DNA from: Niastella caeni
Lineage (GTDB): Bacteria > Bacteroidota > Bacteroidia > Chitinophagales > Chitinophagaceae
NCBI RefSeq assembly: GCF_004834005.1
Contig: NZ_STFF01000003.1
Span: forward strand, 186,001 to 250,000
Direction of reading: 5' to 3'
Length of the DNA: 64,000 nt
Positions 8,462 to 43,320 of this stretch are shown piece by piece; positions within the stretch are counted from its first letter, which is position 1; every line of letters begins with the position of its first letter. The position numbers were made by a program, and so were the translations under genes. The notes under the pieces are model-generated. The model was not told the origin of the DNA, did no database searches, and saw nothing but the letters and a program-made list of their open reading frames with translations.

Positions 8462-8525
8462 GCAAAACACTTAACGCTGGTCCTTGGTGATATTTGCATT
8501 TCGCGCTCAGCGTTAAGCGTTTTGC
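8462..8525. repeat. 18-bp inverted repeat between two type B surface genes (GCGTTAA word family)
   Basis: GCAAAACACTTAACGCTG (8462-8479) pairs with 8508-8525 with a single mismatch, giving an 18-bp stem around a 28-nt loop. The right arm continues as iterated GCGTT words up to the stop codon of the upstream gene at 8537. No T-run follows on the minus strand, so it is not a classical terminator. It could slow decay, partly terminate, or be a dispersed element. Confidence 0.7.
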
Positions 8526-8536
8526 GTTCAGCGTTA

Positions 8537-18640: not shown

Positions 18641-18692
18641 CGTAGTTCTTTTGTCGTGAATGGTCAATAGTGAATGGTGAATGAGAATACAG

Positions 18693-21180: not shown

Positions 21181-21276
21181 GCTAGTGGTCAGTGGCTAGT
21201 GACTAGTAGGGCTTTCATTCGTAACTCGCTGCTTTCTTTTGGCTTTCCTACTCGCCACTCGCTACTCACTACTAGC
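21181..21276. repeat. 30-bp imperfect inverted repeat (CTAGTGGC word family)
   Basis: Arm 21181-21210 (GCTAGTGGTCAGTGGCTAGT...) pairs with 21247-21276 over 30 positions with about 7 mismatches. Both arms are iterations of an ~8-bp word. The same right-arm sequence, ending AGCTACCAGCTA, recurs at 52000-52031. It fills the gap between the DUF4302 and metallohydrolase genes. Confidence 0.75.
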
Positions 21277-21290
21277 TCTTAAGCTACCAG

Positions 21291-28840: not shown

Positions 28841-28953
28841 CAGTTAAGGTTTTATATATTATAAACACGGTTTACTGTAAGTTTCGGGGGGATATGGTGT
28901 AATATTCTTGTATCTTTTTTCTGGCTTGTACCCCGTGACTATTAAAGCCGGCC

Positions 28954-29028
28954 GCAAGCTTCAAGCTTCAAGCTGAAAGCCGCAAGCAAATACAGGAGAT
29001 GGCTTTAAGCTTGTAGTTTGCAGCTTGA
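28954..29028. repeat. 28-bp imperfect inverted repeat (AGCTTCAAGCTT word family)
   Basis: Arm 28954-28981 (GCAAGCTTCAAGCTTCAAGC...) pairs with 29001-29028 with about 5 mismatches and a 19-nt loop. Both arms repeat the word AAGCTTC. It lies in the sigma-fecR gap, directly after the sigma stop. A related word stretch lies near 2625-2653. Confidence 0.72.
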
Positions 29029-34741: not shown

Positions 34742-35296
34742 TTAAAGTCCGGCTTCAATATCAAACACAATAGTAGCAGTACCGGTAAGTGTGGTAGTTG
34801 TAGCACGACGTGTGGTACCTGAAACTTTGTAATACAAAACGGTTGAATTGAAATAATTCTTCAGATCAACATCTTTTACCGGAATGTTCAAAGTGGTAGC
34901 ATAAGCATCCGGATTAGAAGTTAAACCGGCAAATACAGTATAGGAAGGTATGTTGTTGGAAGCCAGGCCGGCTTCGCAAGCTGATAAAGCACCCCAATTA
35001 TCATTCTGGGTGGCATTATTCAATTGCAGGGTGATGCTTTTCACTTTTACCTGTTTGATATTGCTGGTACCAAGGCTTGAATTTTCAATTTTTAACAAGC
35101 TATCGATGTTGATCCCAAATTGAAAAGCGGTCAGTTGTTGTGTACCTGCAGGTTGAGGCGCAATGGAAAACTGAATATCTGCAGTTTCCAGCGGTACATT
35201 TATTTTAATGACATCTTTTAACTTGTTACAGGAGGTAACTGTGGTAAGGGCTAATACGGCAACAAAAAAACCAAGAGATCTGGACAAAATTTTCAT
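34742..35296 (-). CDS. Lipoprotein of unknown function (184 aa)
   Basis: The signal MKILSRSLGFFVAVLALTTVTSC puts the lipidated Cys at residue 23, followed by NKLKDVIKINVPLETADIQF. The rest is a beta-rich domain of ~160 residues with an SLGTSNIKQVKVKSITLQLN segment. I do not recognise the family. It is a single-gene unit: a candidate promoter lies at 35336-35371 and a strong terminator at 34637-34676. Location is probably the outer or inner membrane. Confidence 0.85.
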   Translation of the reverse strand: MKILSRSLGFFVAVLALTTVTSCNKLKDVIKINVPLETADIQFSIAPQPAGTQQLTAFQFGINIDSLLKIENSSLGTSNIKQVKVKSITLQLNNATQNDNWGALSACEAGLASNNIPSYTVFAGLTSNPDAYATTLNIPVKDVDLKNYFNSTVLYYKVSGTTRRATTTTLTGTATIVFDIEAGL

Positions 35297-35484: not shown

Positions 35485-36180
35485 CTAATTTGATACCGTC
35501 TTTTTAACTAAAGGCAATTTTGCATACTGGATCAATACTGAATCACCCTCAACCAGTTTTGATTGCAGACTATGATTCTTAATATTGATCGCAGGTATTT
35601 CGATTGGCGCCATGGCGCAATCTTTGGTTACTGAGGCATAGGTTAACATAGGTATATAGTAATTGATCCCAGATTTAATTATAGGATATGTTCTGCGATA
35701 GCTTGCGCAGCTTCCATCCGGGCAATCGTAGTAGGATGAAAATTCAGGAACTTTGCCGGCTAAAGCGCTACAGGTAGAATTATTTTCAGGCACAGGCGTA
35801 GAAGTGTATTCAGAAACGATCATCAAAGAATCTTTCTGCGCTACAATTTCCATATTTGTACCATTAATGTGAACCCTGTTCTTTTCAAGAAAATACAGCA
35901 CCGTGTTGTTGGCATTTATATTAACCGAAGATTGGTTAACATAAAAATAGTTTTTGGTTTCAGTACTAACATTGCGGTCAAGGAAATCCTGAATCACAGC
36001 AGGATCAGAAATAACTCCATTGCTGGTATAAATAGCCAGTTCGTTTATTTCCATTGTGGAGCCAGGATAATAGGTTTCCAGAATTTTGTCTCCCGGAGTA
36101 TTCATTTTATCATCTTCTTTAGAACATGCATTAAAAAACACACCAGATACTAATAAAGGGAGCAGAACTTTGTACTTCAT
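35485..36180 (-). CDS. Lipoprotein of unknown function (231 aa)
   Basis: The signal MKYKVLLPLLVSGVFFNAC places the lipidated Cys at residue 19, followed by SKEDDKMNTPGD. Four further Cys cluster in the C-terminal half (NNSTCSALAGK, YYDCPDGSCAS and TKDCAMAP), suggesting disulphides. The family is not recognised. It looks like a single-gene unit: its own terminator follows, and a 1.4-kb gap without intact genes lies upstream. That gap includes 36181-36656, where I see only an AT-rich sequence and a 9-bp inverted repeat ACCTTCCAG at 36516-36524 and 36579-36587. Confidence 0.85.
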   Translation of the reverse strand: MKYKVLLPLLVSGVFFNACSKEDDKMNTPGDKILETYYPGSTMEINELAIYTSNGVISDPAVIQDFLDRNVSTETKNYFYVNQSSVNINANNTVLYFLEKNRVHINGTNMEIVAQKDSLMIVSEYTSTPVPENNSTCSALAGKVPEFSSYYDCPDGSCASYRRTYPIIKSGINYYIPMLTYASVTKDCAMAPIEIPAINIKNHSLQSKLVEGDSVLIQYAKLPLVKKTVSN

Positions 36181-36656
36181 CTCGTTTTGTATTATAGTTT
36201 TTATAGACTACGTAATTATTCAGTATGGTACGCACGTACGGGGCCATATAGCCGCATAGCATGCGCCATTCAGTTTTTCTTCCGGACTGAAGCTTCGCTA
36301 ATAGTAATTAATAAAGGCGGTTATCCTTTATTTTCTCAAGCCGTTAGGGACAAACAACAACTGTTTTTCTGAAAACAATGGCATCTTATCGTTCCTGTTC
36401 AGAAATGACAAGCGTTTTGCAGATGTAATTAAAAATTTTCTTAGGCAAACTGTATATTCCTGCAATCGGGGAGTGATTATCAGGGATGGCAAGTATTAAT
36501 AATTGTCAAAATTACACCTTCCAGTCTTTCCAACCAATATTTGTGTAAAAATTTTCATTACTAAGAGCAGATTTTTTTCTGGAAGGTTGCATTACCGTTA
36601 TAATAATTTTGTTTAAAAAAATGTAACCTTTCCATTCTGAGTATAAAAGTAAATGC

Positions 36657-36915
36657 ATGGAAATACAGGAGTTAGTGACAAACATTTTACCTGGAATAGA
36701 TATCCCGGGGCTGAACGCTTATCTATGTACGAAATGCACTCTTCAACTATAGTACAGGTTTAGTTCCGGTACACTTCTCATATGGGAATAATCTATATGA
36801 ACCAATAGTTGTTGCCTTTGAGCACGTAGAAAAAATTAAACTCCATTCGGATCAAGTCAAATTCCCGGGGGATGCTCTATCATTTAAGGTCCTTATTGCT
36901 TTTTTCCGGAGATAA
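36657..36915 (+). pseudogene. Small frameshifted ORF or gene remnant ending in the 21-bp repeat array
   Basis: An ATG at 36657 opens MEIQELVTNILPGIDIPGLN and continues to a stop after 32 codons. Shifting frame near 36730 gives a continuous protein-like stretch: RNALFNYSTGLVPVHFSYGN, then NLYEPIVVAFEHVEKIKL, then HSDQVKFPGDALSFKVLIAF, to a stop at 36913-36915. The composition looks like real protein (~85 residues joined). I do not recognise the family. It may be a recently broken small gene or a fragment. The stop lies within the first units of the degenerate repeat array. Confidence 0.4.
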
Positions 36916-37279
36916 CGGAAAAAAGCCTGGCTAAAATTACTTTTTTGGGGAGATGATCACTTTCTTGTAACAGATGATCTCTTTTCCGGCAGCGATAGTT
37001 GCTTGTTCTCAGGTTATAAATTATTTTTCTGAAGGATAATTGCTTTTTCTCCGGTTATAGCTTCTTTTTCCTGGGCGATAGATACTTTTTCAGGTGAGAT
37101 AAATTAGATCTTTTCAATTATAGCTCATTTTTGTCAGAAATAAATACTTTGTCGGGTGAGATAGTTACTTTTTCTCCGGTGATAGATTCAATACGGTTCA
37201 TTATAAATTATTTTTCCCGGTCATAGATACTTTTTCCTCATTATTTATTTTTTTCTGAAAAATAGCTTTGGGAGGGTTG
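36895..37279. repeat. Degenerate tandem array of ~21-bp units (ATAgnTACTTTTTCnCCGG)
   Basis: About 18 head-to-tail units run through this stretch with boundaries at 36912, 36933, 36953, 36974, 36995, 37016, 37036, 37057, 37078, 37099, 37120, 37140, 37161, 37182, 37203, 37223, 37243 and 37262. Units are 19-21 bp, mean ~20.6. Each starts with ATA (or ATG), then a T-run near position 9-13, then usually a C/G-rich end such as CTCCGGT. The unit at 36912 contains the motif inverted. There is no fixed repeat-spacer pattern and no reading frame, so it is neither CRISPR nor coding. A period of two helical turns with phased T-runs suggests curved DNA or an array of protein sites. Confidence 0.8.
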
Positions 37280-37290
37280 ATTTTAACTTA

Positions 37291-37355
37291 TAATCAAGAA
37301 AAAGTAATTATCTCGCTTGCTTTATAACTTAACACCGGGAAAAAAGTACTTATAG
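37291..37355. repeat. Inverted copies of the 21-bp unit beside the array
   Basis: AATCAAGAAAAAGTAATTAT (from 37291) and CCGGGAAAAAAGTACTTATA (from 37335) are reverse complements of array units (for example ATAGTTACTTTTTCTCCGG). They follow the forward array after ~15 bp, so the whole stretch could fold on itself. From here to the terminator at 37544 I see nothing else that can be supported. Confidence 0.6.
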
Positions 37356-37543
37356 AGGAGTGTAGAAAATAAAAAAAAGGTCTTATAACTTATAATGGCT
37401 AGGAATATACTTTTAATGCAAGCGAGTGTACTTAAACAGGCAACAGGCTTGTTTAACTAACAGAGGAATTGATCTATAAAGAGAAATTTATACTATTAAA
37501 GCACACGAATGCGCTTTCGCTTACTCTTTGGCTAAACTTTCAG

Positions 37544-37569
37544 AAAAAAAGGACCGTCAGTGACAGTCC
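37544..37569 (-). terminator. Rho-independent terminator for the gene at 37599
   Basis: On the minus strand GGACTGTCA pairs with TGACGGTCC (one G-U pair) across a single-base centre, followed by seven T residues. It lies 30 bp past the stop of the 168-residue lipoprotein. Confidence 0.85.
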
Positions 37570-37598
37570 CTTCGATAAAAAGTTTCAAAACCAAAATT

Positions 37599-43179: not shown

Positions 43180-43240
43180 GAAGTAAGAAGCAGGAAGTCA
43201 ACTCCATCAACCTGTTAACTTCTTTCCTACCTCTTACTTC
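43180..43240. repeat. Inverted repeat of the GAAGTAAG word family after the regulator gene
   Basis: Arm 43180-43196 (GAAGTAAGAAGCAGGAA) pairs with 43224-43240 with two mismatches. It lies 15 bp past the regulator stop and could act as a weak terminator, although no T-run follows. Confidence 0.55.
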
Positions 43241-43320
43241 CTACTTCATAAAGCTATGGAGATGGCTATAGGACATTCAACTTCCTTTCAAAACCATTTT
43301 AATCAACGTCAATTTCTATA

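Follow-up and report, generated by a model that had tools for sequence, protein, structure and literature searches.

A degenerate array in two-turn register in Niastella caeni, one of several intergenic array families suggestive of protein binding along one face of the DNA

What is a long run of degenerate repeats, spaced two helical turns apart, doing in a gap between genes, and is anything holding it in shape? We addressed this question for a 64-kb stretch of Niastella caeni DNA (64,000 nucleotides; here called the window), in which the array lies in a gap (36181-37598) with no ORF longer than 61 aa wholly inside. A preliminary description of this DNA had proposed about 18 units with a mean period of ~20.6 bp and had expected autocorrelation at 20-21 bp to exceed that of shuffled sequence. 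Both proposals were borne out. The 18 units of the main array (Table 1) were spaced 19-21 bp from anchor to anchor (mean, 20.59 bp; best-fit period, 20.78), with the consensus AAAAAGnAnYTATCnCCnnnn on the minus strand. Autocorrelation of 36895-37270 peaked at lags 62, 21, and 41 (z = 6.3, 6.0, and 5.6, respectively; 500 dinucleotide shuffles did not exceed z = 4.0 at any lag), making this region the strongest periodic signal of the window. With related arrays as its source, a full circular 21-state profile HMM detected only two segments in the 64 kb, the main array (159 bits) and a second, weak one on the plus strand. With a held-out profile trained on the arrays of other species only, the corresponding scores were 108 bits (36925-37267) and 5.4 bits (37299-37353); all 200 shuffles of the array region scored below 0, and none of the whole-window shuffles scored above zero. 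Because of its degeneracy, the array is absent from the output of Tandem Repeats Finder, which illustrates that sequence-based repeat surveys can overlook arrays of this kind. A protein-coding run of 7-residue repeats was rejected as an identity, since no ORF spans the array and the alternation of unit length between 20 and 21 breaks the reading frame.

Table 1. Positions in the window of the array, its edges, and the neighboring genes used as synteny markers.
Feature	Position	Strand	Evidence
Main array, 18 degenerate units	36895..37268	-	Autocorrelation, profile HMM, held-out model
About three opposite-orientation units, weak	37285..37355	+	14.5 bits (full model), 5.4 bits (held-out model)
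Array end common to paralogous arrays (..CCGTTTTTnnGTTATCTCCGGAAAAAA..), with a perfect inverted repeat of 11 bp	36899..36927		Sequence; collinearity with L105, L106, and L113
231-aa predicted lipoprotein-like gene, synteny marker	35485..36180	-	57% identity to L111 6825-7514
184-aa gene, second synteny marker	34742..35296	-	78% identity to L111 5992-6546

Inverted units had been proposed on both sides of the main array. Those downstream exist but are weak, whereas the unit upstream is better read, from the sequence and the alignment of units, as a same-direction unit with a T-run in place of the A-run; this substitution gives the 11-bp inverted repeat GCTTTTTTCCG/CGGAAAAAAGC near 36899-36927. 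Units in opposite orientation on the far side were also observed at loci L111, L113, and L115. A start-less open frame on the plus strand (36700-36910; ..TGLVPVHFSYGNNLYEPIVVAFEHVEKIKLHSDQVKFPGDALSFKVLIAFFRR) ends at the array and is possibly a gene remnant. On the side of the window array away from the synteny markers, the two genes are species-specific and therefore unusable for comparison of orthologous sites.

The window array is one of several. BLAST detected three further arrays in its own genome (8.1 Mb). A covariance model using sequence only placed four arrays in that genome, six clear and one weak in N. vici DJ57, three in N. koreensis GR20-10, and one each in two further congeners (G005 and G008), with no array-strength match in the remaining congeners or in other genera of the family and order. 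Copies at different loci and in other species are collinear, and the genes around them differ from locus to locus, with the exception of two pairs of syntenic loci. One of these pairs consists of the window locus and L111 of N. vici, which have in common the 184-aa and 231-aa genes, the orthologue of the latter also adjoining the N. vici array, and the layout of minus-strand followed by plus-strand units. Only ~67 bp of the two arrays can be aligned, yet type, register, and polarity are kept despite this divergence of sequence. The conservation of register in relatives that had been anticipated was thus found, both between collinear paralogous arrays and at the syntenic N. vici site.

Two groups could be distinguished among these arrays, those within one subfamily being related to each other and hence not independent. 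Family I (window, L105, L106, and L113) has collinear units and one common end, ..CCGTTTTTnnGTTATCTCCGGAAAAAA. In Family II (L108, L109, L110, L112, L116, L117, and L118), a conserved leader with a small hairpin, up to about 370 bp long, precedes 15-20 units, and homology ends on the right where the array ends. The Family II leader gave matches only at the short-match level in other genera and none in phages or plasmids. Clean arrays were found in N. koreensis (L116) and N. vici (L108-L110). Some arrays, the close copy L105 included, are missing from the corresponding gene in congeners; for L105, the orthologous gene in two congeners lacks an array, but the neighboring genes have changed too. 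Several observations on the surroundings were made in passing. At L106, L107, L113, and L115, the neighbor whose 3' end points toward the array carries a type IX secretion C-terminal domain (Por_Secre_tail or CHU_C). A Cas6 gene and a neighboring gene adjoin the array at L118 (5355-7967), and remnants or copies of a gene for a 204-aa protein lie near arrays at two unrelated loci (L107 8970-9300 and L117 7676-8290; 79% DNA identity over 299 bp).

Collinear copies allowed the parts of the unit to be compared. The core, AAAAA..A..TAT, was far better kept between copies than the spacer in a same-base control. When the comparison was restricted to A/T bases to exclude the influence of base composition, identity was 0.94 and 0.91 in the core, 0.66 and 0.65 in the spacer, and 0.80 in the leader outside the array. 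With four pairs pooled, 441 of 479 A/T bases were identical in the core versus 113 of 159 in the spacer (P = 4 × 10−10); three of the four pairs were significant alone, and L117/L118 was not (P = 0.46). Per-position identity between collinear copies tracked unit information content (Spearman 0.73 and 0.81), and the information common to units was concentrated in the core. Indels inside arrays measured either 1-3 bp or 20, 20, 21, and 41 bp, with no intermediate sizes, and in the tested arrays the period stayed coherent across as many as six units. Since the core is so much better conserved than the spacer and the longer indels are whole units, core and register appear, from these sequence comparisons, to be under selection. 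The earlier suggestion that spacing is under selection gains support from two findings: collinear paralogous arrays retain register and core as their spacers drift, and unrelated families have the same period.

These unrelated families were found by searching from L134 outward and by a model-free scan of 0.2- to 0.9-Mb samples from three genomes of Niastella. At the N. vici locus L134 (1678-2013; G001:C58), the leader of Family II stands before a completely different 21-bp array, GTTTRCAGCTG..., with CAGCTG cores in 42-bp dimers, which gives the impression of an exchange of the array part. About ten further families with unrelated units and a period of 20.0-21.2 bp were present in Niastella intergenic DNA, with unit types such as GTTTGCAATTGCAAACCATAC (L143), GTTTTCAGTTTAAAACAGTGC (L145), TTTTCCTGGGAAAA (L185), AAATCCTGGGATTA (L174), AATTGCCCGGGGCAATTATGT (L237), GCAACCTGnnTAAACnTTGGA (L186 and L189), AAGGAAATCAGAAAACCTTC (L167), GTTACCTACTGATGAGTCATA (L235), TATTTTAAACTAACTGGCACC (L123), and TTTTAAAAAGnAGA (L188). 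Profile comparison sorted 18 arrays into about 11 clusters, and similarity between clusters was marginal relative to column-permuted nulls. In every array type the best period fell within 20.0-21.2 bp, with runner-up periods behind, and several clusters had dyad-symmetric cores (e.g., TTTTCCTGGGAAAA, TTGCCCGCGGGCAA, and GTTTGCAATTGCAAAC). A lag of 21 was detected in long noncoding segments of N. koreensis (9 of 108) and G002 (5 of 49) and in none of 123 from three other genera of the family (N. koreensis versus the three control genera, P = 0.0009 at the threshold used). These counts are somewhat high because some cases are 7-bp repeats, the third multiple of which is 21 (at least one in N. 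koreensis and several of the five in the window's own genome). Among 247 long noncoding segments sampled in the N. caeni genome, 40 exceeded the threshold at a lag of 7, and the window itself contains 7-bp tandem arrays at 8509-8536, 18656-18683, 21181-21207, 21248-21277, 28951-28987, and 43224-43247. Other repeats were also observed: near-perfect 42-bp arrays of GTTTGCAATTGCAAACCATACCGTACAAATTTGAAACACCCC at several G006 loci (L143 1500-1780, L146 1-200, and L148 190-430), and, in N. koreensis, an array of tRNA-like fragments (TGCGTCCGCCAGCTGGCGGATATGAGCCCGA) with a lag of about 81 around an apparent tRNA gene (L188 14650-15560; G004:C1:394650-395560). A literature search for 21-bp or helical-phase intergenic arrays returned nothing comparable.

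A conserved core combined with two-turn spacing in unrelated vocabularies is expected of sites for proteins confined to one face of the helix. Beside the observed register, core conservation, dispersal, and single period of several families, we infer a protein, its cooperativity, and a function for the arrays. Our best idea, to which we assign a probability of about one half, is that the window array is a putative row of ~18 weak sites for a sequence-specific DNA-binding protein, two turns apart on one face and occupied cooperatively. Units at this distance would place all bound molecules on the same face of the DNA, an alignment that would permit cooperative binding and, with it, the formation of a bridging patch or filament. 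The protein would contact each unit at its A-tract and TAT core, and the C/G-rich part would be the spacer. The window array would then be one copy of a dispersed element, and arrays with other cores at the same spacing would probably be read by paralogous proteins or by one family with divergent specificity. The dyad symmetry of the window family is weak (palindromicity of 0.42 or less), which counts against this reading. Most operators have far fewer sites than the 18 or more seen here, and the reading is further weakened by the lack of some arrays, L105 among them, at the corresponding gene of congeners and by a bias to 3' ends that is no more than moderate.

The position of the arrays relative to genes suggests where such a protein might act. 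The start of an array often lies no more than 150 bp from a stop codon; the A-strand side is toward the gene 3' end at 11 of 14 window-family loci (P = 0.009 versus the genome background), and gaps between convergent genes account for 10 of 33 when all arrays are taken, versus 22 of 166 gaps of similar size (P = 0.02). This bias to 3' ends is moderate, with small samples. Given how often an array follows directly on a stop codon, its role would probably lie at transcript ends or gene borders, whether in silencing, in insulation, or as a roadblock to transcription.

The strongest rival is neutral minisatellite turnover, in which slippage or unequal crossing-over would generate decaying repeats without function and the 21-bp preference would reflect a genus-specific mutational mechanism with a two-turn step. 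Such turnover would agree with the existence of near-perfect recent arrays (a 42-bp unit repeated seven times at L143; L116), the patchy presence of arrays, and the unrelated sequences of the families, and whole-unit indels are expected of any tandem repeat. However, a neutral repeat would not give rates that differ between core and spacer, as they do even when A/T bases alone are compared, nor does it sit well with unit-to-unit information residing mainly in the core, and slippage alone does not explain why unrelated units should have a period of 20-21 bp in common. We consider this explanation unlikely.

We regard it as improbable that the arrays belong to a nonautonomous mobile element, with subterminal repeats bound by a transposase-like protein and the inverted units of the far side as its other end. 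The dispersed collinear copies, the long leader, the homology edge at the array end, and the opposite-orientation units at the window, L111, L113, and L115 are all consistent with such an element. In contrast, no terminal inverted repeats or target duplications were visible in an alignment of eight copies, and the copies are old (70-85% identical). Phage, plasmid, and viral-contig collections contained no match to the arrays, and a mobile origin on such replicons was rejected. The 15-20 sites of an array also exceed the number of MuA or TnsB sites at transposon ends.

Activity as RNA, in a 3' UTR or as a long hairpin RNA, seems very improbable. The starts near stop codons and the orientation toward gene 3' ends would suit it, and families with palindromic units fold strongly by prediction. 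However, such folding is mainly confined to those families and is thus not a common property. The window array, for which folding as RNA had been suggested, did not support that suggestion (z = −1.3 on one strand and +0.5 on the other), and folding in the window family overall is hardly stronger than in shuffles, L113, L116, and L118 excepted. The search for intrinsic terminators (a G+C-rich hairpin and then a T-run) found 0 sites, with 1.2 expected by chance, and no Rfam family matched; an array of rho-independent terminators and a known Rfam RNA were accordingly rejected. Moreover, a register of 20.65 nt has no obvious reason in A-form RNA. We give least credence to curvature of phased A-tracts as the selected property: under a wedge model, families A, B, C, and F were predicted to be highly curved but several others ordinary, so that curvature is not common to all, and the curvature once expected from the phased T-runs of the window array did not rise above that of composition-matched DNA (z = 0.6 versus shuffles), the window family ranging from −1.3 to 1.2 with the exception of L112 (2.6).

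Beyond the single array, the protein-binding reading may extend to the whole genus. Tentatively, we envisage an architectural code in which intergenic arrays, set by two-turn spacing rather than by sequence and written in several core vocabularies, would be recognized by filament-forming DNA-binding proteins of one family, and these would mark gene borders or organize the nucleoid; alternatively, the genus might possess a generator that duplicates any DNA in two-turn steps. A view limited to one array could not have revealed that it is one of several families. If spacing and not sequence is what unrelated intergenic arrays conserve, then helical phasing has been put to a natural experiment within a bacterial chromosome, and Niastella would offer a directly testable example of a system, nucleoid-associated or border-marking, that lies beyond the H-NS, HU, and ParB paradigms.

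Among known systems, CRISPR arrays likewise have a leader followed by an array. The Niastella arrays differ in having contiguous degenerate units with a variable part of about 7 bp, rather than a conserved direct repeat and spacers of constant length. Near-identical repeats with unique spacers were absent, no cas genes were present among the window neighbors scanned, and Cas6 was recognized beside only 1 of 15 loci (L118); a CRISPR identity was rejected, in line with the preliminary description. REP/BIME elements, MITEs, and heptad STRR-type arrays are multicopy, intergenic, and taxon restricted. Like MITEs, the Niastella arrays have dispersed homologous copies at nonorthologous sites, but those elements are defined by sequence, whereas here unrelated sequences have one helical period. 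Plasmid replication iterons, direct repeats with units of about 17-22 bp, also come close to two turns of the helix, and the window array resembles them in its direct repeats at helical spacing (period, 20.6-20.8). It differs in its many chromosomal copies without a rep gene or a replication function seen: no rep-like gene was found among the window neighbors scanned, neighbors differ between loci, and no plasmid matched. In the type II plasmid centromere parC of pSK41, sites for ParR form a continuous tandem array (PMC5016525). That centromere is a single plasmid locus beside a par operon, in contrast to many dispersed chromosomal loci; no par genes were seen at the loci examined, and a Pfam search at the window gave no par match, four of seven neighbor proteins having no Pfam match at all. 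In the Bordetella fha and ptx promoters, dimers of BvgA~P, a NarL/FixJ response regulator, occupy weak sites cooperatively on one face of the helix, with 22 bp between site centers (PMC7250471). BvgA~P uses three to six sites upstream of a promoter, whereas the Niastella arrays have 15-20 sites, often at 3' ends and in several sequence families. The window array has the same arrangement of several degenerate, putatively weak sites with centers two turns apart, and BvgA~P may be taken, by analogy, as the best precedent for its geometry, a likeness in way of working rather than in family membership.
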